The position numbers were made by a program, and so were the translations under genes. The notes beneath the pieces were generated by a model, which made no database searches, had not been told where the DNA came from, and worked only from the letters and a program-made list of their open reading frames with translations. Below, piece after piece: positions 47,413-57,242 of a stretch of DNA of 64,000 nt; positions within the stretch are counted from its first letter, which is position 1, and every line of letters starts with the position of its first letter. Source of the DNA: Prosthecobacter algae (GTDB lineage Bacteria; Verrucomicrobiota; Verrucomicrobiia; Verrucomicrobiales; Verrucomicrobiaceae); assembly GCF_039542385.1 (NCBI RefSeq), contig NZ_BAABIA010000008.1, positions 62,001 through 126,000 of the forward strand, written 5' to 3'.

Positions 47413-49110
47413 TTAGGCGGTCACACCCAGGTCACTCATCAGTTGACCAATGAAGATGGCCCGCTCCTCCTCCGTCATGGTACCAGCACGCCAGCACAGC
47501 GTCAGCACCAGGCGACCGTTTTTCTCATTCGTGAAGACCCCCGTTCCTGGAGGATCCGAAAAGCTGGGCACGTGATAGGCATTCGTCACCTGCGCCCCGC
47601 CAAAGTGAGTCAACTCAGGCGCAAAGACACCCGTATTCGAATGGTAGAAGGAGCTGAATTTACCCTTCATGTGCCAGTTGATGAAGTGCATGTGCAGGCT
47701 GGGCGGCATGGGCCTCATCATCCACATCAGATCGCGAAAGGCATCGCCGATCTTTTCCTTGATGAACCGCGTGTGCTGCTTGTGCAGAGACTGCGCCGCC
47801 GCATCCAGCGTGGTCAGATCCTCCGCCACCAGATTGCAGAAAAACATCGTCAGGTGATTTTGGAAAAGCGGGCCCCGGGTACCCTTCCGCCGCACCTGGA
47901 TAGGCACACAGCACATCAGCGACTCCGGCTTCTGCCCGCGATGGGCAAACACCCGCTGGTGCGCCCGCATCGCACAGGCCAAATGAAACGGCATGTTGAT
48001 CAGCGGCCCCGAAACCTCCGCACTGCGGCGCGCTGCCTCTGCACTCTGCTCCTCCGTCAAGGTGATGACCTGGAAGTGCGCCCGCCCTGCTGAGAGCTTG
48101 GCCGAGCCGAGTGCCTCAAAAGACTTACTCATCACCGTATCAAAAAAAGCTGGCATCACCTTCGCCGTCTTCCAGCGTTCCCCCCAGCCCCGCTGGTCCT
48201 TCAGATCAGTGAGGTCAAACCCAGGCACCGGCTCACTTTTCCCGCCTAACAAACGATTGATTTCCAGCAGGAAAAACTCCGCACCGATGCCGTCCATGAT
48301 GAGATGGCTCCAGGAGAAAACAAAGACGCAGGAGCCATCGGCTTTTTCCACCAAGTCAAAGCGCACATTGATCCACCCATCTTCATACTGCGGCAGGGAG
48401 GTATTGATGATGTCATCCAGCTTCGTTTGCAGATCGGCAAACTTCTGCGCGCCATGCGACAGCAGCGTCCCTGTCGATTTTTCGTCGGACCATAATTGCA
48501 ATTCCAGGGGCCGCGGATTCGTCGCAGGCACCCAGAGAGGCAGCGAGAAGAAGCTCGGCTTCTTGAGCTGCGCCGTCAGGATGGGAAAGGCAAAGTAATT
48601 CTGCAACCGCACCAGCAGCTCCTTCAGTGCCACCACATCGGGCGCACGATCCAGCTCGATGAAGGAGCGGGCGATGTGCCCACCCTGCCCGGCCTGGCGC
48701 AGCATTTCATCAAACGCATGCGTGAAGAAATCACAGTCACGCAGCGGCAACCGATCAAATTTTTCTTCCGGCACTGGTGGGGCCTTGGGCACGATGACCA
48801 CAGGCTCGGGCGGGGGCGCGGGTGCAGGCTCCTCCGCACCGCCTTGGGTGATGGCATAACCTTGCTCCACCAACAGCGCGGCGATGGTTTGCGCCGTTTT
48901 AAAATTGGCCCGTGAGACGCTGCCCACTGGAATGGCCACGCCGTAGTGCTCCTCTAGAAGCAGCAGCAACTGCATGATGGCCATCGAGTCCAAACCGGCC
49001 TCAAAGAGGTCAGAACTGACGCCGAAACCAGGCGGTGTTTGGAGGACTTCGTCACGGACGAGATCGAGCACACGCAGCTCGAGTTGGGACAGGGTGGGGG
49101 CGTCAGGCAT
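47413..49110 (-). CDS. acyl-carrier-protein/condensation-domain fusion protein
   Basis: The product has 565 residues from the ATG at 49110. Residues about 5-85 are a phosphopantetheine-binding domain with the attachment serine in AGLDSMAIMQL. A Pro/Glu linker follows. Residues about 130-560 form a CoA-dependent acyltransferase fold with the HxxxDG motif in HLIMDGIG, as in NRPS condensation and wax-ester-type acyltransferases. No adenylation or ketosynthase gene is nearby. It could esterify a carrier-bound acyl group, but the substrate is unknown. Confidence 0.85.
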   Translation of the reverse strand: MPDAPTLSQLELRVLDLVRDEVLQTPPGFGVSSDLFEAGLDSMAIMQLLLLLEEHYGVAIPVGSVSRANFKTAQTIAALLVEQGYAITQGGAEEPAPAPPPEPVVIVPKAPPVPEEKFDRLPLRDCDFFTHAFDEMLRQAGQGGHIARSFIELDRAPDVVALKELLVRLQNYFAFPILTAQLKKPSFFSLPLWVPATNPRPLELQLWSDEKSTGTLLSHGAQKFADLQTKLDDIINTSLPQYEDGWINVRFDLVEKADGSCVFVFSWSHLIMDGIGAEFFLLEINRLLGGKSEPVPGFDLTDLKDQRGWGERWKTAKVMPAFFDTVMSKSFEALGSAKLSAGRAHFQVITLTEEQSAEAARRSAEVSGPLINMPFHLACAMRAHQRVFAHRGQKPESLMCCVPIQVRRKGTRGPLFQNHLTMFFCNLVAEDLTTLDAAAQSLHKQHTRFIKEKIGDAFRDLMWMMRPMPPSLHMHFINWHMKGKFSSFYHSNTGVFAPELTHFGGAQVTNAYHVPSFSDPPGTGVFTNEKNGRLVLTLCWRAGTMTEEERAIFIGQLMSDLGVTA

Positions 49111-49177
49111 TACGGGGGTAAGCCTGGAACGTACAAGCACCAGCCACAGGGTCAAGGGCAGGCACACGTATCCCCAC

Positions 49178-50218
49178 CTACTTCCCAGCCCGTACTTCGA
49201 TGTGTTTCACCCCCGCAGCCCTCTCATTCACCGCAAACTGCACGGAGAGGAACCTTTCGATGAGGGTCATGTTCGTCTGCACATGATTGCTCAGCGTCAG
49301 GGTGGTGAACTCTCCACCGCCCGCCAGCGCCAGCGGCAGCAGCAACTGATCAGCCAGATGCACGCCCACCGCTGCCTCAGAGGCTAGGTAATTTTTCAGC
49401 CCCTTCGCCGCTCCTGTAGCCACAGCTTCCGCCGACTTACCCATCTGCGCGATGCCCGTGCTGATCTCGCACACATTCGCAAACCGTGCGCCCAGCAGCA
49501 GCGCATTGCCAGGGCCCGCGCTGTCATTGGCATACCGCAGTTCCAGCCTTTCCTCCGGCCAATCCAGCACCTTTGCCGCTGTCGAAATTTCCCGCTGGGC
49601 GATGTCGCCATGCAGATGCGCATGCAGCACCCGGCCAAAGTACTCCTGCAATTCCCCACGCTCCAGCAGCTTCAGTCTCTTCCACTTTTTCACCGGGGCA
49701 ATCTTAGCCGTCAGCACCCCACCACCTGCTTGCATGAAACCATGGCGCTCCAGGACGACCTCAGCCTTCACCCCCATCCTTTGTAGCACTGGCAGGAAAC
49801 ACTCATCAATGAACTCAAACGGCGGTGCCATAGGATTGTGTGTCCCACCCTCAATCCTCAGCGTGCTCGCCCCTTCCGCATGCAGCAGGGCGGGCAGCAG
49901 CGTTTGCAGGACCAGCGTCGTACTCCCCCCGCGGCCGATGTTAAAGGCATAGTTCCCAGCACGGATTTCCCCCGGAGCAAAGACCAGCTCCACCGAGCCC
50001 AACTCCGCGCCATCCACCGCCGCGTTGCAGACCTCCGCCGCCGCCTTCACACACGTCAGGTGCTGGCGCATCAGCCCCGGCGTTGGCCGCTGGCCACGGA
50101 TGTTCGTCATCCGAAACGGCTGCCCAGTCACCATGGACAGCGACAGCGCCGAACGCAGCAACTGCCCGCCGCCAGATTCACCGGAGATTTGGAGGAGGGA
50201 GGAATTGGTTTTGGTCAT
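49178..50218 (-). CDS. rtcA: RNA 3'-terminal phosphate cyclase
   Basis: The product has 346 residues, normal for RtcA. It begins LLQISGESGGGQLLRSALSL and contains RPTPGLMRQHLTCVKA and an EGGTHNPMAPPFEFIDE core. The adenylylated histidine is in LSNHVQTNMTLIERFL near residue 310. The enzyme converts RNA 3'-phosphate to a 2',3'-cyclic phosphate using ATP. In other bacteria it is co-transcribed with rtcB. Here two genes of opposite direction separate them, leaving only 34 bases between the rtcA start and the first of these, with no obvious -24/-12 element ahead of rtcA. Confidence 0.96.
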   Translation of the reverse strand: MTKTNSSLLQISGESGGGQLLRSALSLSMVTGQPFRMTNIRGQRPTPGLMRQHLTCVKAAAEVCNAAVDGAELGSVELVFAPGEIRAGNYAFNIGRGGSTTLVLQTLLPALLHAEGASTLRIEGGTHNPMAPPFEFIDECFLPVLQRMGVKAEVVLERHGFMQAGGGVLTAKIAPVKKWKRLKLLERGELQEYFGRVLHAHLHGDIAQREISTAAKVLDWPEERLELRYANDSAGPGNALLLGARFANVCEISTGIAQMGKSAEAVATGAAKGLKNYLASEAAVGVHLADQLLLPLALAGGGEFTTLTLSNHVQTNMTLIERFLSVQFAVNERAAGVKHIEVRAGK

Positions 50219-50252
50219 TGCGAAAGAAAATGGACTCAGGTAGTTTCAGGGG

Positions 50253-50444
50253 ATGTTAGCCATACCTGCCAGCATTAATGAAAGGCGTGCCGCAGATCGC
50301 CAGCGAGTCGCTGAGTATTTAAAAAACCAGCGCCCTTTCACCGATGTGGAATGGGCAGCACAACTGCGGATTTTTGAGGCGGTGGGACGCGATACAGCTT
50401 CTTCCATGCCTTTTTGGAAACGCTGGTTTTCACGATGGAACTGA
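50253..50444 (+). CDS. small protein, function unknown, overlapping the next gene
   Basis: The product has 63 residues from an ATG just after CAGGGG, which may be a weak ribosome site. It is helical (NERRAADRQRVAEYLKNQ, VEWAAQLRIFEAVGRDT) and ends in a tryptophan-rich FWKRWFSRWN. No family is recognised. It lies between rtcA and rtcB on the opposite strand and overlaps the start of the kinase-like gene by 10 bases, so the two are probably translated together. Confidence 0.55.
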   Translation: MLAIPASINERRAADRQRVAEYLKNQRPFTDVEWAAQLRIFEAVGRDTASSMPFWKRWFSRWN

Positions 50445-50935
50445 AGCCTGCCCATCTTCCGAAGGGATTTGGCCAAACCCGAGGCTCTGAGCATGAAGTT
50501 TGGCTTTCGGACGACAAACTTCGCGTGATCAAGGCAACACACGCAGGCGAGTTCGGGCGTAAATTCGGTCCAGACCGCTTTGCAACATTGGGTGAGTATT
50601 TGGAGCGCATCCGCCTCCTAAACGAGGAATTCGCTGTCGGATGGCAAATCGAAGGCATTTGCGGCGAAGGCCGTTCGCAACGCATCATCACCTCTCAGCC
50701 TGCTTACCACGGCAAACCGCCGACGCTGACGGAAATCCGCCAGTTCATGCTGGAGCGTAGTTTTAAGTTACATAAGACTCGATTCGGTGATGCTTGGTTT
50801 CGAAAAGAAGATGGGCTGCTGATTTCCGACGCTGAGCCAAAAAACGCCGCTTTAACGACGAATGGGATCATGCCTTTTGATTTTCTCATAACACGTCCCG
50901 CACTGGAGTTGTTAAAGACCGCTCTGATCCAATGA
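50435..50935 (+). CDS. kinase-like protein, resembling polyvalent-protein kinase domains
   Basis: The product has 166 residues from the ATG at 50435. The second half is the informative part. QPAYHGKPPTLTEIRQFM, then LLISDAEPKNAALTTNGIMPFDFL mimics the D-x-x-P-x-N catalytic segment followed by a Gly and D-F element, as in small kinase-like domains of mobile polyvalent proteins. The N-terminal half would be a nucleotide-facing beta-sheet (VIKATHAGEFGRKF). No strong ATP-binding glycine loop is seen. Kinase activity is an inference. The gene is antisense to the rtcB-to-rtcA direction. Confidence 0.5.
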   Translation: MELKPAHLPKGFGQTRGSEHEVWLSDDKLRVIKATHAGEFGRKFGPDRFATLGEYLERIRLLNEEFAVGWQIEGICGEGRSQRIITSQPAYHGKPPTLTEIRQFMLERSFKLHKTRFGDAWFRKEDGLLISDAEPKNAALTTNGIMPFDFLITRPALELLKTALIQ

Positions 50936-50957
50936 AAAATAGAGGGTTCATACTCAC

Positions 50958-52445
50958 TCAATCATCCGCCTCTGCGGCATCCTTGATCACGAAGCGAGCC
51001 TTCAGCTTGCACACCTGCTGCGCAAGACCGGCGGACTCCACGCTGCGAAGGACCTCTTTAAAGTCCTTATAAGCGTTCGGCGCTTCATCGATCGGATACT
51101 GGCGCGAATTGAAGAGGATGTCGTTAGACTCGAAATCCGCATCCACGGCTTTCTGGTCCAGTACACGGGAGGCGTGTTTGCGCCCCATGCAGCGGCCTGC
51201 CCCGTGGTTCACGCTGTAGCAGCTCTTCACCGCCTCAGGTTTTGCCACCATCACCACCGAGCCATCGCGTGGATTTCCTGGCAGCAAGATCGGGTGACCG
51301 GTCGCAGCAAACGGCGTGTCCTTCAGCGCATAGTGGCCACCAGGAAACGCACGGGTCGCCCCCTTTCGATGCACCCAGGAGAGTTGGTTATCCACCACTT
51401 CCTGACGTGCGATATTGTGGCTGATGAAATACACCAGTTGTCCCTTGGTTCCTGGCAGCACTTCTTGGAAAGCCTCCAGCACCAGCGCATTGATGAGCAT
51501 GTGGTTCACCGTGGCGAAGTTCGCCCCCAGCGCCATGTCATCCAGATACGCATTGGCCTCCGGCGTCCCCAGCGGTGCATAGACAAGCTGCTTGTCACCC
51601 GCCGGTAAATCCAGGCCCCAGGTACGGAAGAAACCTTCCAGCGACTTGAACTGACGCTGCGCCAAAATGTTCCCAAACCCGCGCGATCCGCAGTGGCTGA
51701 GAAAGGCGACACGATCATCCTGAAGGCCAAAGACCTCCGCCGTCGCACGCATCGCCGGGTCTTCATCCAGTTGCACCACCTCACACTCACCGAAGTGGTT
51801 TCCACCTCCGTAAGAGCCGAGCTGCATCATCTTGTTTTCAAAGTTCGGGAAGGCATTGAAGGCACGCATCTTGTCCAGGCGCTCATGCAGGGTGGAGACG
51901 TTTCCGTCATGCCCATAGTGCGCACTGTCTTCGCAGCGCAGCGCCCACTCTGGAGGGATTCCCAGCGCCTCACACACGGCCTGGCTCGCACCCTCGGTGC
52001 AGGCCTGCACTCCGAGCGCCGCCGAGACAAGGCGGGACTTCTTCGCCTCACGCTGACCACGCCCCGGCCCCGTGGGGGTGCGGGCCACGATGGCCTCGAT
52101 GAGACGACGGCGAACCGTGCGATCCACGATCTCACTCGCTGGAATGTTCATCTGCAGAAGCGACATGGAGCACTTGATATCCACACCCACCGGGCCTGGA
52201 TAAATGTGCGTGGGCGAAGCCATCACGCAGCCCACTGGCGCTCCGTAACCGGCATGCGCATCCGGGTTTAAAACCAAGTCCGTCACCCCAGGGGCCGAAC
52301 GCGAGTTCAGCGCCTGTTCAATGCAGGTCTGGTCAAAGCCATTTCGGATCGCCTCCGTCCCGATCACCGTGATCGGTTTGCCCTTATTATTGCGGGCAGG
52401 AATAAAGGCTTCAGCTTCGTTGATGATTTGAAAAGGAGAGGTCAT
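50958..52445 (-). CDS. rtcB: RNA-splicing ligase RtcB
   Basis: The product has 495 residues. Metal and catalytic residues are visible: Cys in GVDIKCSMSLL, NHFGECEVV, SHCGSRGFGN, and NHGAGRCMGRKH, whose histidine forms the GMP intermediate. It joins 2',3'-cyclic phosphate or 3'-phosphate RNA ends to 5'-OH ends using GTP and manganese. Its start overlaps the stop of the HEPN-like gene (ATGA), so it belongs to the slipin-HEPN-rtcB unit under the sigma-54 promoter. It ends 22 bases from the oppositely oriented kinase-like gene. Confidence 0.97.
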   Translation of the reverse strand: MTSPFQIINEAEAFIPARNNKGKPITVIGTEAIRNGFDQTCIEQALNSRSAPGVTDLVLNPDAHAGYGAPVGCVMASPTHIYPGPVGVDIKCSMSLLQMNIPASEIVDRTVRRRLIEAIVARTPTGPGRGQREAKKSRLVSAALGVQACTEGASQAVCEALGIPPEWALRCEDSAHYGHDGNVSTLHERLDKMRAFNAFPNFENKMMQLGSYGGGNHFGECEVVQLDEDPAMRATAEVFGLQDDRVAFLSHCGSRGFGNILAQRQFKSLEGFFRTWGLDLPAGDKQLVYAPLGTPEANAYLDDMALGANFATVNHMLINALVLEAFQEVLPGTKGQLVYFISHNIARQEVVDNQLSWVHRKGATRAFPGGHYALKDTPFAATGHPILLPGNPRDGSVVMVAKPEAVKSCYSVNHGAGRCMGRKHASRVLDQKAVDADFESNDILFNSRQYPIDEAPNAYKDFKEVLRSVESAGLAQQVCKLKARFVIKDAAEADD

Positions 52446-52984
52446 TGTTTATCTGGAGAAATTAATGATAATCGTGAAGTGCAGTAGTGAAGAAAGGCGG
52501 GCTTTGATAGCCCCTTTAGAGAATCCTCCATTGATTCATCAATTCCAAAGTCAGCGAGGAACTTCTCTTTTGATCGAAGATACTTTGGAAAATGAATTCC
52601 AAACCAGAGAAGAAATACCAGCGTTATCCCAGATGTATTTTGGCCTAACTGTTTTAAGCCCTTTGCCGAAAACAAAAAAAAGTCGTGTACTGAATTTTCA
52701 TCTATCTTGAGAACACCGTCGGGATCATTATCTGCGTGCTTCAAGAAATTCCATGGCCGCTTTAAATGGGCGACGTACTGATTACGAAATTCTTCCTTGA
52801 TGATTAGTGAATCAAAAAGCAGATCTTCGCCTCTTAATCTCTGGTTGAGGTCATGAATGATTTGGTGTGCGGAAGCAGCGAGGGTAAAAACAGAAACTAC
52901 ATCTTCTTCCAGAAACCAGAGACGAAAGGATGTATCCAATTGACGTTGTGCTGCATCCAACTTGGTTATAATTTCCGATTTCAT
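52442..52984 (-). CDS. HEPN-like helical protein embedded in the rtc operon
   Basis: The product has 180 residues, almost entirely helical. An N-terminal AQRQLDTSFRLWFLEEDVV helix is followed by SVFTLAASAHQIIHDLNQRL and KRPWNFLKHADNDPDG. In the last, an Arg and a His six residues apart (RPWNFLKH) fit the R-x(4-6)-H pattern of HEPN ribonucleases. The helix arrangement is compatible, but I cannot confirm the fold. The gene is AT-richer than rtcB. Its stop codon overlaps the rtcB start (ATGA), so the two are translationally coupled. It may be an RNA cutter or only a related helical scaffold. Confidence 0.6.
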   Translation of the reverse strand: MKSEIITKLDAAQRQLDTSFRLWFLEEDVVSVFTLAASAHQIIHDLNQRLRGEDLLFDSLIIKEEFRNQYVAHLKRPWNFLKHADNDPDGVLKIDENSVHDFFLFSAKGLKQLGQNTSGITLVFLLWFGIHFPKYLRSKEKFLADFGIDESMEDSLKGLSKPAFLHYCTSRLSLISPDKQ

Positions 52985-53040
52985 TATTATCTAATATCTT
53001 GTTATAATAACTAATAGAGTCCTTTTTGATTGTCTTTTAA

Positions 53041-53775
53041 TTAGAGTCTATCTGGCGCTGAAGCTGTTAGCTTACCATAATCCGTCAGCCCCAGCACCAG
53101 GGTATTCCCCGCGCTGGTTCCCACTTCCTGCAGAGTCTGCAAGTAACGGAGTTGAAGCAACTCGGGGTTGTCACGCATCAGCTTGGCAGCATTGGCCAAG
53201 GTGCGCAGAGCAGCCGTTTCAGCACGGGCTTTTTCGAGTCCGGCTTGCGCTTCTTGTCGCTGCTGGAGGGCAGACATAAAGCTGCGTTTGAGATCGGCTG
53301 GCAGCATCACATCGCGGATGTCCACGCGAGCGACTTTTAGCCCCAGGGCCTCAGCATTCACCGCCACTAGCGCAAGCAGCTTGGTGCCGTGATCCCCTTT
53401 CTGTTGAAGGAACACCTCGGCAACATCGGCAGCGACAATCTGACGAAGGGCAAGCTGGATGTCGGTATAAAGGGCGCTGCTCACATCCTGAGTCGCGCGA
53501 TGCATCGCCAGAGCATCCACCACCTGAAAGGTCGCCAACGCGCTGACTTTCAGCGCCACTTGGTCTGCGGTCAGGAGCTCCTGCCCTTGTACCAGGATGG
53601 CTTGGGCACGCATGTCCACACACTTCATTTCGTGACCCGAAGTCCAGAAACGATGTTTACCAGGAGCCAGCAGTCCGACGTAACGCCCATCTTTGAAATG
53701 CAGGGCCGTTTGATGATCTTGAACGACAAAGCTACGGGAGGCCAGAGGACGGAAAATGGAAATGAAGGTGGTCAT
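53041..53775 (-). CDS. slipin (SPFH/Band 7 family protein)
   Basis: The product has 244 residues from the ATG at 53775. The frame is open 72 codons further upstream, but that part is non-coding leader. It has the Band 7/SPFH core: RSFVVQDHQTALHFKDGRYVG, LAPGKHRFW, LTADQVALKVSALATFQVVD and LGLKVARVDIRDVMLPADLK, followed by a coiled coil (QQRQEAQAGLEKARAETAAL). There is no long N-terminal transmembrane helix. Slipins scaffold membrane microdomains. This gene is the first of the slipin-HEPN-rtcB unit, and slipins are known from some RtcR-controlled operons. Confidence 0.88.
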   Translation of the reverse strand: MTTFISIFRPLASRSFVVQDHQTALHFKDGRYVGLLAPGKHRFWTSGHEMKCVDMRAQAILVQGQELLTADQVALKVSALATFQVVDALAMHRATQDVSSALYTDIQLALRQIVAADVAEVFLQQKGDHGTKLLALVAVNAEALGLKVARVDIRDVMLPADLKRSFMSALQQRQEAQAGLEKARAETAALRTLANAAKLMRDNPELLQLRYLQTLQEVGTSAGNTLVLGLTDYGKLTASAPDRL

Positions 53776-54049
53776 AAAAAAGAGAGTTTTATAAGAGGTT
53801 CCTCCCGGCTGGATCGGCGGACCGATGACGGGAACTGAAGGGGTCAAACGTGGCGGCTTTCGCCACGACACCCGACAGCTCGCAAAGTCATCAGGCCGTT
53901 GTGTCTGCCTGCCGTAGCAGACTTTCACCCCGACCATCCGGGAAGAGTTTTTTGAGTTGTAGTGCCTTTTCAGGGGCATTGACCTCCTCACCGATGCGCA
54001 GCGTTCATCGGCCTATCGCCTCAGGTTGCTGCATGGAGTTGGAGAACGA
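53776..54049 (-). other. long structured 5' leader of the slipin-rtcB operon
   Basis: About 270 bases lie between the predicted sigma-54 start point and the slipin ATG. They contain three good hairpins: a 7-bp stem CGTGGCG/CGCCACG at 53849-53867, GTCTGC/GCAGAC at 53903-53922, and CCGATG/CATCGG at 53991-54011. No open frame with a plausible protein is present. In several other bacteria rtc operons encode tRNA-like Y RNAs. I cannot show that here, but a non-coding RNA or regulatory leader is plausible. Confidence 0.45.
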
Positions 54050-54059
54050 GGAGAAGTAT

Positions 54060-54075
54060 TGCCAGGACCGTGCCA
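54060..54075 (-). promoter_or_regulatory. sigma-54 (-24/-12) promoter of the slipin-HEPN-rtcB operon
   Basis: The minus strand reads TGGCACGGTCCTGGCA. This has the essential GG and GC with exactly 10 bases between them and a full TGGCACG box, deviating from consensus (TGGCACrNNNNTTGCW) at one T. Its position upstream of slipin and the divergent RtcR activator, an obligate sigma-54 partner, make it the likely RtcR-controlled promoter. Transcription should start about 12 bases beyond the GC, near 54049. Confidence 0.8.
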
Positions 54076-54088
54076 AGTTTTGGCACGG
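54068..54088. repeat. perfect inverted repeat overlapping the sigma-54 promoter
   Basis: CCGTGCCAA and TTGGCACGG are perfect 9-bp inverted half-sites with a 3-base centre. One half-site contains the -24 box of the slipin-side promoter and the other faces rtcR. On the plus strand the second half-site is followed by a GC with 9 instead of 10 bases spacing, so it is not a proper second promoter. Confidence 0.75.
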
Positions 54089-54130
54089 AGGTGCCGAATG
54101 ACGCTGGAAACCTTATAGAATAAGGGAAAG

Positions 54131-54211
54131 AAAATTTTATCCGTCTTCAAACCTCCCAAACGTCTCAACAATAATTATCCAATAATGTATTCATTGAGAT
54201 AAAATTTTATC
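54131..54211. promoter_or_regulatory. two AT-rich palindromic operator-like sites ahead of rtcR
   Basis: GATAAAATTTTATC at 54198-54211 is a perfect 14-bp palindrome. The shorter AAAATTTTATC at 54131-54141 repeats its core 70 bases earlier. Both lie between the sigma-54 promoter and the rtcR start, in a visibly AT-rich patch. They could bind RtcR (upstream activator sites), a repressor or a bending protein. Confidence 0.5.
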
Positions 54212-54268
54212 TTTTTGGATAAGTGTTTAATATCTTCATGGGCGAATTTGATCCCGTCTTTCTTTTTC

Positions 54269-55852
54269 ATGAAATCCACCGTTGTTTTTGGCTTCCTGGG
54301 CAGTTCTCTGGACCGTGCTCAAGGGGCGGATCGGTGGTCCAGATGGCGGCCCACCGTGGCCATGTGCCAGCAGGAGGATCTTCTCGTTTCACGTATGGAA
54401 CTGCTTGTGGAACCCAAGTTCCTGGACATGGCCCAGCAGGTCATTGCCGACATCCGCCAAGTATCACCAGAAACGGCGGTGAAGGTTCACGAGGTCTCTT
54501 TTGCCGATCCCTGGGATTTTCAGCAGGTTTACGAAGGTCTCTACGACCTGATAACCAACTATGCGTTCAAGACGGACAAGGAAGACTACCTCATCCATCT
54601 CACCACCGGTACGCATGTGGCGCAGATCTGCTGGTTCCTGCTGAATGAAGCGAACTTCATCCCAGCCCGTCTTTTGCAAACTTCACCCGTTAGGCGTGAA
54701 GGACGTGACTCCACTGCCGCTGGGCGTTATGAGATCATTGATCTGGACCTCTCCAAGTATGATCGCCTGGCCACGCGATTTGCCCAAGAGCAGGAAAAGA
54801 CGCTGGATTTCCTGAAGAGCGGCATTGCTACCAAGAGCAAGACCTTTAACCAGCTCATCGGCCAGATCGAACTCGTGTCCGTGAATTCCAAGGCTCCCAT
54901 GCTGATCATGGGCCCCACTGGCGCGGGCAAGTCCCTGCTGGCCTCACGCATCTATGATCTACGCGCTACCCGCGCAGGCCTAACCGGAAGGTTTGTCGAA
55001 GTCAACTGTGCCACCCTGCGCGGGGATCAAGCCATGAGCACTCTGTTTGGTCATCGCCGGGGAGCCTTCACGGGTGCGCAAGCGGACCGCCCCGGTCTGC
55101 TAAAGGAGGCCGATAAAGGCCTGATCTTCTTGGATGAAATCGGCGAATTGGGCCTGGATGAACAGGCGATGCTGCTGCGTGCTCTGGAGGATAAAACCTT
55201 TCTCCCACTGGGTGCTGACAAGGCCGTCTCCAGCGATTTCCAACTCATCGCCGGCACGAATCGCGACCTGCGTGCGGAGGTGAAAGGGGGAAAATTTCGA
55301 GACGATCTTCTCGCCCGCATCAATCTGTGGACCTTCACCCTGCCCAGCCTGGCCGAGCGGCGCGAGGACATCAGCGCCAACCTGGACTTTGAGCTAGAAC
55401 GTTTTGCCAAATCTCACCGCAGGCAAGTGCGCTTCAACAAAGAGGCTCGTGAAGCCTTTCTCAAATTTGCTCGCAGCCCCGAGGCCAAATGGAACGCCAA
55501 CTTCCGCGACCTCAACGCCGCCGTCACCCGCATGGCCACCCTAGCCCCCAAAGGCCGCATCACCGTGGACTGTGTGGAGCAGGAGAAAGCCCGCCTGCTG
55601 AACGGGTGGCAGGAAGGCGAACCTCAGCGGCAGGACTCCGTCCTCAGCAATGAAGAGCGGTCGCAGATCGACCCCTTTGACCTCGTGCAACTGGACTATG
55701 TGCTCGGCATCTGCCGCGAGAGCAAAACCCTCTCCGATGCCGGCCGGAAACTCTTTGCCATCTCTCGCGAGAGCAAAGCCAAGACCAACGATGCGGACCG
55801 CCTCAAAAAATACCTCACCCGTTTTGGCCTGACCTGGGAGCGCGTAAAATAA
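54269..55852 (+). CDS. rtcR: RtcR: CARF-domain sigma-54 transcriptional activator
   Basis: The product has 527 residues from the ATG at 54269 (MKSTVVFGFLGSSLD). Residues 1-175 are the RtcR-type CARF sensor (HLTTGTHVAQICWFLL). An AAA+ sigma-54 domain follows, with Walker A GPTGAGKS (about 215-222), GAFTGA loop (about 265-270) and Walker B FLDEIGE (about 287-293). The C-terminal segment ends in a helix-turn-helix region (about 470-520). RtcR responds to RNA ends carrying 2',3'-cyclic phosphate in known systems. It is divergent from the slipin-HEPN-rtcB genes and is expected to activate the sigma-54 promoter between them. Confidence 0.96.
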   Translation: MKSTVVFGFLGSSLDRAQGADRWSRWRPTVAMCQQEDLLVSRMELLVEPKFLDMAQQVIADIRQVSPETAVKVHEVSFADPWDFQQVYEGLYDLITNYAFKTDKEDYLIHLTTGTHVAQICWFLLNEANFIPARLLQTSPVRREGRDSTAAGRYEIIDLDLSKYDRLATRFAQEQEKTLDFLKSGIATKSKTFNQLIGQIELVSVNSKAPMLIMGPTGAGKSLLASRIYDLRATRAGLTGRFVEVNCATLRGDQAMSTLFGHRRGAFTGAQADRPGLLKEADKGLIFLDEIGELGLDEQAMLLRALEDKTFLPLGADKAVSSDFQLIAGTNRDLRAEVKGGKFRDDLLARINLWTFTLPSLAERREDISANLDFELERFAKSHRRQVRFNKEAREAFLKFARSPEAKWNANFRDLNAAVTRMATLAPKGRITVDCVEQEKARLLNGWQEGEPQRQDSVLSNEERSQIDPFDLVQLDYVLGICRESKTLSDAGRKLFAISRESKAKTNDADRLKKYLTRFGLTWERVK

Positions 55853-55853
55853 T

Positions 55854-57242
55854 TCACCAGCCAGGACTGGCGACAAATTTGCGCAACTCCTTGTTATCCA
55901 CCATCTGGGTGATGCGGATCTCCCCATCATGACTGGCTGTGATGACGGCCTGCCCATCACCGCCCCCGAGGAGGGCCATGGCATTCACCCGGTCACCATG
56001 CATGACCAACCGGGCTTTGGTCTTTCGGGCCTTGGCATCAATCACGCTGACCTGCCCACTGCCGCTGGCGGTGATCGGTGTATCCTGGTTCAGGTAACTC
56101 AGGGCCAGCACTTCCGTGCGGCCTGCCGGGCGTAGTGTGCTATCCTTCTTTCCCGTGCCATCTAGCGTCCAGCGCCGGGCCTCACCATCCTGGCCACCAG
56201 AGATCACTTCCTTGCCATCCGGGGCAAAGGCCACGCTGAGCACAGGCACGCTGTGGCCGGTAAAGGTGCCTTCAATTTCTCCCGTGGCGGTCTTCATGAC
56301 TTTAGCCGTGCGGTCGCGGCTGGCGGTCGCCACGTGCTGGCCGTCCGGACTGATCGCTAAGCCAAGAATCCAGTCCGCATGGGCCTCAAGGTTCCAGATT
56401 TCCTTGCCTTCGGGCAGGGCAAAGCAGCGCACCCGGTTGTCGGCCCCTGCGGTGACCAAATACTTTCCATCGGGAGACGTCACCGCATCCAGCGCACAGT
56501 CGCGCATTTGGGCCAGCCGCTTGCGCTCCGCAGGTTTGGCGTAGTTTACCAGCCACACTTCGCCACTGCGCCCAGGGGTGCCTCCGGCGACTGCAAGCCA
56601 CGGGCCGCCCTGAACAAAACTGAGACCAAGCACCCGCTCCGGCATGCCTGCCAGCCGCCCGCGCATCTTACCAGTCGCCGGGTCCCAGCTCAGCACCTCA
56701 TGGTAACCGCTGGTCACCAGCACCTTGCCATCACCATTCAAAGCGAGCGCCGTTACCGGGATGGGACGCGGATACTTCTCCAGTGTCTGCGCCACCTTCT
56801 GCGGTAGCAGACTTGTGAGGGAAGCCTGGGCATTGGAGCCATCATACTTCGCCCCTTCACTGATCCATTGACGGATCAATGCGATGTCTTTCTCCGGCAG
56901 GGCATCGGCCTTTTTGGGCATGCGGTCTGAATCGTCATGAACAACGAGGAGTTCATACAGCTCACTAGCCTCCGCCTTGCCTGGAACCACAGTAGCCTCT
57001 TCACTATCCCCGGTTTTGAGCAGTTGCTCAAAGGTGTCGAGCCGATAGCCACCTTTGGCCTTTTCGGCGCGGTGACATTCCAGGCATTGGCCTGCCAAAA
57101 TGGGGGCGATCTGCTTCGAAAATGAAACTGGTGCAGCCAGGGCGGAACTGGAAGCGAGAAAGCTGGCGATGATGAACCTCACGAAGAAAGAACGTCTGCC
57201 ACTCGACACTTTGAACAGATGAAATGTGCCGTCAGCGGTCAT
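55854..57242 (-). CDS. PSCyt1 cytochrome c plus WD40 propeller protein
   Basis: The product has 462 residues from the ATG at 57242. It overlaps the YkgJ gene by 11 bases. The N-terminal signal peptide (about 15-36) is followed by a planctomycete cytochrome c-like domain with C-L-E-C-H in LAGQCLECHRAEKAKG (about 50-65). A WD40-like propeller follows from about 140 to the end (LAVAGGTPGRSGEVWLVN, DGKYLVTAGADNRVRCF, VATASRDRTAKVM, VISGGQDGEARRW). Secreted proteins of this build are abundant in Planctomycetes and Verrucomicrobia. No catalytic role is known to me. Confidence 0.88.
   Translation of the reverse strand: MTADGTFHLFKVSSGRRSFFVRFIIASFLASSSALAAPVSFSKQIAPILAGQCLECHRAEKAKGGYRLDTFEQLLKTGDSEEATVVPGKAEASELYELLVVHDDSDRMPKKADALPEKDIALIRQWISEGAKYDGSNAQASLTSLLPQKVAQTLEKYPRPIPVTALALNGDGKVLVTSGYHEVLSWDPATGKMRGRLAGMPERVLGLSFVQGGPWLAVAGGTPGRSGEVWLVNYAKPAERKRLAQMRDCALDAVTSPDGKYLVTAGADNRVRCFALPEGKEIWNLEAHADWILGLAISPDGQHVATASRDRTAKVMKTATGEIEGTFTGHSVPVLSVAFAPDGKEVISGGQDGEARRWTLDGTGKKDSTLRPAGRTEVLALSYLNQDTPITASGSGQVSVIDAKARKTKARLVMHGDRVNAMALLGGGDGQAVITASHDGEIRITQMVDNKELRKFVASPGW

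Follow-up and report, generated by a model that had tools for sequence, protein, structure and literature searches.

The targets of RNA-repair operons and the roles of their extra genes are the question addressed here through a locus of Prosthecobacter algae, which lies at positions 49178-55852 of the 64,000-nt stretch that we analysed (the window, to whose positions all coordinates refer; L and G numbers are labels of compared loci and genomes). With more confidence than doubt, we read it as a slipin-type RNA-repair operon controlled by RtcR and sigma-54, and the structured leader RNA of such operons as a putative tRNA mimic that is handled together with the slipin and mostly replaces Ro60 and Y RNA. 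Comparison of sequences indicates that slipin-type operons in the window's family begin with a long, conserved and structured leader RNA.

An earlier note on this DNA had described a damage-sense-repair system comprising rtcR, a slipin, a HEPN-like gene, rtcB, a kinase-like gene and rtcA. Open reading frames (ORFs) and Pfam and NCBIfam profiles place every one of these genes where the note had put it. The rtcR gene (+) points away from slipin, the 180-aa HEPN-like gene and rtcB (all -), and rtcA, also present, is split from rtcB by two genes on the opposite (+) strand, an arrangement that the note had likewise recognized. The features are as follows.

49178-50218 (-): rtcA, RNA 3'-phosphate cyclase, 346 aa (PF01137, E 1e-76; NCBIfam NF003246, 419.7 bits, cut-off 352)
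50253-50444 (+): 63-aa ORF just before the kinase-like gene; among the loci scanned it has a homologue in L035 only, at the same place
50435-50935 (+): kinase-like gene (Kinase-PolyVal), 166 aa (PF18762, E 3.9e-9; 37.2 bits, curated cut-off 27)
50958-52445 (-): rtcB, RNA ligase, 495 aa (PF01139, E 2.9e-99)
52442-52984 (-): 180-aa all-helical protein with a probable HEPN fold (structure match to AbiV); ATGA overlap with rtcB
53041-53775 (-): slipin (Band 7/SPFH), 244 aa (PF01145 Band_7, E 1.3e-22)
53776-54048 (-): structured leader RNA, predicted to start ~12 nt after the promoter (conservation, folding, covariation)
53797-53948 (-): domain B of the leader, its second structured domain, on which the covariance model R1 was built
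54060-54076 (-): sigma-54 promoter TTGGCACG-N4-TGGCA, facing the slipin operon (12/13 consensus)
54272-55852 (+): rtcR, CARF domain and sigma-54 activator, 526 aa (NCBIfam NF038308, RNA_repair_RtcR, 792.5 bits, cut-off 650; RtcR N-terminal model PF06956, E 1.3e-80; PF00158 Sigma54_activat)

For rtcR, a TTG at 54215 was set aside and the start at 54272 preferred, because the RtcR family model spans residues 1-526 of the 54272 product. A second rtcB lies elsewhere in the same genome, which encodes no TROVE (Ro60-type) protein at E 0.001.

Promoter and leader of the slipin operon

A sigma-54 promoter had been claimed between rtcR and slipin, and a near-perfect site facing slipin is indeed found there. 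The sequence TTGGCACGGTCCTGGCA at 54060-54076 (-) agrees with the consensus at 12 of 13 positions, a score equalled by none of 200 mononucleotide shuffles, and it is the sole site in 64 kb without a mismatch to TTGGCACGNNNNTNGCW. Sites with up to two mismatches number 14 in the same 64 kb, and 14.01 are expected by chance. The genome encodes two RpoN proteins. Among 32 family loci, the window counted, 22 have a sigma-54 site scoring at least 11, and six of the ten low-scoring loci (L039, L126, L131, L133, L134 and L138) have a full site outside the stretch scanned. The eight-base -24 box alone proves nothing, because it also occurs 266 nt before a Rhizobium slipin that has no rtcR (L151). Of the 28 TROVE loci, 18 have this box 48-62 nt before TROVE and three more have it at 111, 124 and 422 nt, with none seen in seven; in slipin loci linked to rtcR or sigma-54 it lies at least 281 nt before slipin wherever a box is seen.

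In the window ~270 nt separate the promoter from the slipin start. The stretch running from promoter through leader to slipin is 93, 80 and 75% identical to those of L122, L114 and L119, respectively, in alignments that span 420, 423 and 295 nt and take in both promoter and slipin start. The window's leader, folded over 53776-54059, is predicted to reach a stable structure at -109 kcal/mol (z -3.94), and none of 200 dinucleotide shuffles folds as well. When eight leaders are aligned, 96.3% of the cells in 72 consensus pairs are paired, compared to 36-48% with slid partners, the consensus structure having been derived from the same alignment on which it was tested. Changes on both sides are seen in nine of the 72 pairs, a number reached by one of 500 shuffles, and the covariation score exceeds that of all 500.

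The covariance model R1 gives 11 matches in the 68 family genomes, one in each genome, all beside the slipin of an rtc locus, and none in the 35 genomes that lack rtcR. Eight of these matches constitute the training set; the untrained ones are G413 (162 bits), L113 (102 bits) and L137 (32 bits). On the compared loci, R1 also found L034 and L115, both outside the training set, at 30-32 bits.

The protein encoded immediately downstream had been cast as a membrane scaffold, an idea that its sequence does not bear out. The window's slipin reaches a largest 19-residue hydropathy of 1.55 and has no N-terminal hydrophobic segment, and all 22 slipins linked to rtcR or sigma-54 stay below 1.8 when measured from projected starts. 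Two slipins without rtcR, in contrast, have values of 2.59 and 2.72 at residue 1. Since the window's slipin lacks the hydrophobic N-terminus that these two have, a soluble SPFH protein is more likely than a membrane scaffold. PADLOC returns nothing for the window's slipin, and its NCBIfam match to hflK, at 30 bits, is far under the cut-off of 159.

tRNA likeness of the slipin leaders

The neighbours whose recurrence with rtcR or rtcB the earlier note had put at issue do recur in rtc loci: slipin in 14 of 33 family genomes with rtcR, the kinase-like gene in 7 of 27 family loci with rtcA and rtcB both on the contig, and the HEPN-like gene in three rtc loci, the window itself being counted in every such family figure. 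RtcR-type matches occur in 51 of 288 genomes drawn from the phylum and in 33 of 68 from the family. Two of the 14 slipin genomes also have TROVE, 13 others have TROVE without slipin, and four have neither, carrying instead a ~230-aa protein (L117 among them was assigned by eye). The remaining two, G389 (L130) and G388 (L139), are cut by contig ends and were left unassigned; L120 was counted as TROVE-type, and G413, whose slipin and rtcR are on separate contigs, was taken to be a slipin locus. Slipin and the Ro60-type protein mostly alternate in the rtc loci of this family. Beyond the family, slipin adjoins rtcR at L037, L042 and L061, which belong to the phylum and are more distant, in Burkholderia cenocepacia and Citrobacter and, judged from match positions, in other Burkholderia and Photobacterium.

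Leaders of slipin loci frequently contain a candidate tRNA T-arm. A search of 480 nt upstream, demanding at least four of five pairs and the conserved loop, finds this element in 17 of 22 slipin loci, compared to 0.21 expected from shuffles, and in none of 28 TROVE loci (Fisher p 2.7e-9). Under a stricter rule (five of five pairs) it is retained by 10 of the same 22 slipin loci and still by none of the 28 TROVE loci. The T-arm is present in 8 of 13 loci of the window's family, in all three of the more distant phylum loci and in all six proteobacterial records. This count includes the E. coli locus L141, where rtcR is not adjacent, as sigma-54-linked; it leaves out L055 (a slipin fragment) and the controls L151 and L152 (slipins without rtcR, neither of which has a T-arm), and the G413 leader (L158) is not among the 22.

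Whole cloverleaves are called by ARAGORN upstream of slipin in L042, L061, L146, L148, L149 and L150, and the L061 cloverleaf scores 49.7 bits with the Rfam tRNA model. Some of these structures depart from ordinary tRNAs. A two-base 'anticodon' is assigned in L146, in L149 and in one of the two cloverleaves of L150. A four-nucleotide loop, GAAA, caps the predicted anticodon arm of L146, and a loop of equal length is present in L055, which is not part of the count; arms of this kind could hardly decode.

YrlA, a bacterial Y RNA, is tRNA-like as well. Matches to it at the Rfam gathering threshold occur downstream of TROVE in L035 (two copies) and L129 (one); the TROVE loci L034, L036, L039 and L115 yield none, nor do two slipin loci, L038 and L128. 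The two copies in L035 are tandem, lying between TROVE and rtcB (L035:6834-7121).

Under the reading that we favour, RtcR would fire the promoter at 54060-54076. RtcR responds to damaged tRNA, and RtcB joins and RtcA cyclizes RNA ends, as is in part general knowledge and in part stated in sections of two reports (PMC7790460, PMC9650030). The resulting transcript would open with the ~270-nt structured leader, followed by the soluble SPFH protein, the HEPN-fold accessory protein and RtcB, with RtcA distal. Leader RNA and slipin would together do the job performed by Y RNA and Ro60 in sister operons, the leader acting as a Y RNA stand-in that binds or presents damaged tRNA or as a decoy for tRNA-cleaving enzymes. 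Across RtcR operons this module would mostly stand in for Ro60 (TROVE), a protein paired with Y RNA in some loci. In the window's clade the T-arm is absent and the second domain retained. The HEPN-fold protein would be an exchangeable accessory that helps by RNA binding or cutting, and is perhaps an RNA binder rather than a nuclease.

A wider proposal is possible, and we put it forward tentatively: slipin-type RtcR operons of several groups, together with the slipin operon of E. coli, may all make a sigma-54-driven tRNA-mimic RNA along with a soluble SPFH protein. The ribonucleoprotein so formed would take over from Ro60-Y RNA in the control of tRNA damage, where it would be a decoy for anticodon nucleases or a scaffold in an SPFH shell. 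Some mimics lack a normal anticodon loop, a property that bears on the decoy option. An SPFH shell containing RNA would be loosely parallel to the eukaryotic vault. If an induced tRNA mimic does stand where sister operons have Ro60 and Y RNA, tRNA-like RNA would be a general part of RtcR systems, a question that could be tested in E. coli isolates carrying slipin and leader.

Several observations weigh against the tRNA-mimic reading. The 22 slipin loci are not independent, since 13 come from one family, and the T-arm is absent from the leaders of the window, L122, L114, L034 and L115. Rfam gives only two sub-threshold chance matches in the window region 48500-56500, and ARAGORN calls no tRNA in the window's leader. 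Because of the missing T-arm and the silence of both programs, what we claim for the window itself is a conserved structured leader and not a tRNA mimic. Elsewhere, ordinary three-base anticodons occur in L042, L061, L148 and the second cloverleaf of L150, and the leaders of L146 and L140 are not listed by the Rfam tRNA model up to E 0.05. Single cloverleaves are barely more stable than shuffles (z -0.5 to -2.0), and for the E. coli leader the folding advantage over mononucleotide shuffles is moderate (z -2.3). As YrlA reaches its threshold in only two of six searched TROVE loci, the statement that slipin replaces Y RNA is a generalization. Within the leader alignment, the number of further pair types is unremarkable (378/500 shuffles), and kinship alone can lift sequences above such shuffles even when there is no structure. 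R1 misses the slipin locus L038, and its genome search used strict filters with 45 candidates scored per genome. Finally, the window scan shows no sigma-54 site for rtcA itself within two mismatches.

Conservation and covariation argue for structure in the leader. As a rival reading, the leader might act in cis alone, as a regulator in the 5' untranslated region that responds to RNA ends or to the activity of RtcB or RtcA and governs slipin translation. Such a role accords with the position of the leader directly upstream of slipin and with the R1 search, which finds it nowhere else in 68 genomes. However, the whole cloverleaves at the same place in other loci and the Y RNA of two sister operons suggest an RNA with a fate of its own, and we consider an exclusively cis-acting leader possible, on the doubtful side.

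The E. coli slipin and leader, identified by sequence, are present in 1,621 of 5,426 complete genomes (~30%). In one annotated example the slipin is paired with a nucleotidyltransferase; the 8.1 kb displayed include no rtcR, and the annotation lists no RNA. This pair stands behind a sigma-54-like site and leader in L141 and L153 (both E. coli) and in L140 (Citrobacter), the T-arm being seen in L140 and L141. In L140 rtcR is adjacent and neither rtcB nor rtcA is in the stretch shown; in L153 rtcR is out of view and a zeta-toxin gene is next door. The pair is a possible second RtcR target in E. coli, judging from these arrangements.

Two further loci place tRNA-like sequences near rtcR. In L055 (5936-6122) a sigma-54-like site precedes a cloverleaf whose anticodon has two bases; both lie on the other side of rtcR, ahead of the slipin fragment. 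In L054 (7141-7252), from the same phylum, a sigma-54-like site beside rtcR is followed by a complete tRNA-Asn(GTT) gene, ~37 nt separating the two starts, between rtcR and rtcB.

Accessory genes of the locus

Four bases, ATGA, are shared by the 180-aa gene and rtcB, and the guanine-cytosine (GC) content of the 180-aa gene is 40%, compared to 57.5% for the window. Low GC content and overlap fit a gene that was acquired elsewhere, yet may be translated together with rtcB. Sequence profiles say little about the protein: it matches no Pfam family up to E 1 and nothing in PADLOC, its best profile matches are to NCBIfam (E 0.12, chance level) and PHROGs (E 0.16), and a PDB sequence search with the family profile is empty. 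Homologues occur in scattered bacteria and on plasmids, with distant ones in seven plasmid records; phages yielded none, and neither did viral contigs searched with two homologues.

An AlphaFold2 model computed from two sequences is all helical (predicted local distance difference test 75.9, predicted template modelling score 0.74). Foldseek returns nothing below E 1 for this model, HEPN toxins appearing from rank 17 with E of at least 2.6. With VIA-align the top match is AbiV (Z 9.8, root-mean-square deviation 3.0, 126 residues aligned), and 13 of the 18 top rows name HEPN, AbiV or MntA-HepT. One of eight homologues matches HEPN_Apea (E 0.0038). The model thus probably has a HEPN fold, closest to that of the RNase AbiV; we grade it as probable only because unrelated helical bundles can reach a Z of ~13 without kinship.

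The earlier note had proposed that this HEPN-like protein is an RNA cutter. The fold assignment stands as probable, and the nuclease function finds no support, since the arginine of the catalytic motif is not conserved. In nine aligned members the sole invariant residues are L35, F80, K82 and H83, and the Rx4-6H motif is not a family property, there being no arginine at a fixed distance before H83. According to the portion of Anantharaman et al. 2013 (PMC3710099) that we cite, HEPN families without the motif R or H exist and may use other residues.

A system in which the HEPN protein cuts RNA and RtcB and RtcA reseal it appears improbable to us. It would draw on the likely fold, on the top match being an RNase by title, on the four-nucleotide overlap with rtcB in both the window and G413, and on the sequence RNQYVAH at residues 67-73 of the window's protein, which fits the HEPN motif. 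However, this sequence is not shared by the other members, and 25% of 1465 background ORFs contain a motif of HEPN type, for which reason such motifs were not counted as evidence. Moreover, a nuclease induced by RNA damage together with its own ligase would presumably create a costly loop.

HEPN calls based on Rx4-6H motifs for several slot proteins of the compared loci were dropped for the same background frequency. Only two slot proteins have profile support, namely a 204-aa protein of L119 (HEPN_AbiU2, E 8.7e-5, under the cut-off) and a 155-aa protein of L138 (HEPN_RiboL-PSP, E 0.093; PADLOC CARF2-HEPN, E 0.0064). PDB sequence searches with two slot proteins are empty. That the rtc region is a hotspot of HEPN genes is a suspicion raised by these sequences.

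Six copies of the HEPN-like family are present in the 68 family genomes, three of them in rtc operons (the window, G413 and G405). G413 has the same slipin-HEPN-like-rtcB order and four-nucleotide overlap as the window, and in G405 the gene lies between rtcB and rtcA. The copies in G418 and G387 have no rtc, slipin or TROVE gene within ~1.5 kb, and that of G389 is on a different contig from its rtcR. The wider phylum contributes two genomes of 387, one of them the window's own.

The kinase-like gene is carried between rtcA and rtcB by the window, L035, L116, L121, L127 and L131, with a remnant in L124. Identity between the window's copy and the other five complete ones is 57-85%, and the gene would seem to be a guest fixed at one spot. 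Kinase-PolyVal relatives of greater length (214-288 aa), which share ~30% identity with the window's, are located beside rtcR, before the first operon gene, in L131, L133, L134 and L138.

Both genes might be passengers, unrelated to RNA repair, in a region prone to insertion, and we give this explanation a substantial chance, short of an even one. The HEPN-like gene is AT-rich and sits in differing slots, and half of its six family copies have not turned up in an rtc locus. As for the kinase-like gene, it runs on the opposite strand, and its relatives, found in 23 of 387 phylum genomes, are mostly at other places. Yet three of six HEPN-like copies fall inside rtc operons of ~7 kb, for which a rough model gives a chance of ~3e-8, and seven of 27 family loci retain the kinase-like gene at one and the same spot.

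Related systems and neighbouring genes

The operon of E. coli and Salmonella is more fully named rsr-yrlBA-rtcBA. As described in the consulted part of PMC7790460, this RtcR-controlled rtcBA operon resembles the window's locus in its CARF-sigma-54 activator, divergent sigma-54 promoter, ligase and cyclase. The window has slipin and a long leader RNA where those operons have Ro60 (Rsr) and Y RNA, and it differs further in the HEPN-fold gene before rtcB and the two opposite-strand genes before rtcA. The leader is like YrlA (RF02553) in being a non-coding RNA of an rtc operon; however, it precedes slipin rather than following TROVE, and the region 48500-56500 has no RF02553 match up to E 5.

The rtc locus of Pseudomonas aeruginosa (PaFlo8; PA4582, PA4584), compared here from published text, carries an SPFH protein with rtcB, rtcA and rtcR, as the window does, and the sections seen of PMC13086221 and PMC8619066 mention neither a HEPN-like gene nor a leader RNA. 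We infer that PaFlo8 is PA4582. Single and multiple paFlo deletions caused no pronounced phenotype, according to the same sections of PMC13086221. If the reading proposed here is correct, it would suggest a function for this poorly understood group of SPFH proteins, PaFlo8 included.

AbiV (PDB 9bj5-9bj7), an RNase of the HEPN family that belongs to a two-component antiphage system, is the best structural match of the 180-aa protein, at 8-10% sequence identity; the comparison concerns the fold. Type II CoCoNuTs, in the excerpts used of PMC11090510, share RtcR-like control of genes that include HEPN proteins, as well as the idea of feedback. Unlike them, the window region has true rtcB and rtcA genes and no McrBC-type domain among the nine ORFs put to Pfam.

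The combination had been called undescribed in this form, which holds in part. The core is not new, because RtcR, RtcB and RtcA are known together and a slipin within an rtc locus has been printed for P. aeruginosa (PMC13086221); RtcR-like control of HEPN genes has been printed for CoCoNuTs (PMC11090510), both as far as the excerpts go. What appears to be new, within the literature covered, is the structured leader RNA of slipin-type operons, with its T-arm in many of them, on which the earlier note was silent. In the literature searched we found neither a leader RNA nor a tRNA mimic described ahead of slipin; the search excluded Burroughs and Aravind 2016, a survey that may list slipin, TROVE or HEPN neighbours of rtc genes.

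Other genes also recur in rtc loci. The ~230-aa family, with a cysteine cluster recognized by eye, heads or joins rtc operons in L117, L118, L124, L132, L134 and L038, and the two members tested (L038 and L124) have no Pfam match. The gap between rtcB and rtcA holds a recurring small-gene cluster in L116, L119, L122 and L133, with a DUF6331 match in L119, the only one tested, and recurring genes for products of 108-127 aa, which by eye have a hydrophobic stretch at the C-terminal end, in L035, L121, L122, L132 and L134. In two genomes of another family, a Cys_rich_CPCC / DUF6714 protein is encoded between TROVE and rtcB (L048:11995-12819 and L044:5764-6690); Pfam was run for L048, and L044 was assigned by its similarity to L048. 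A 260-aa gene between slipin and rtcB in L128 (7247-8029) matches the phage family phrog_28904 (E 3.4e-23). In the window itself, a 584-aa ORF at 47413-49167 adjoins rtcA and begins with an N-terminal phosphopantetheine carrier domain (PF00550), the remainder having no Pfam match.

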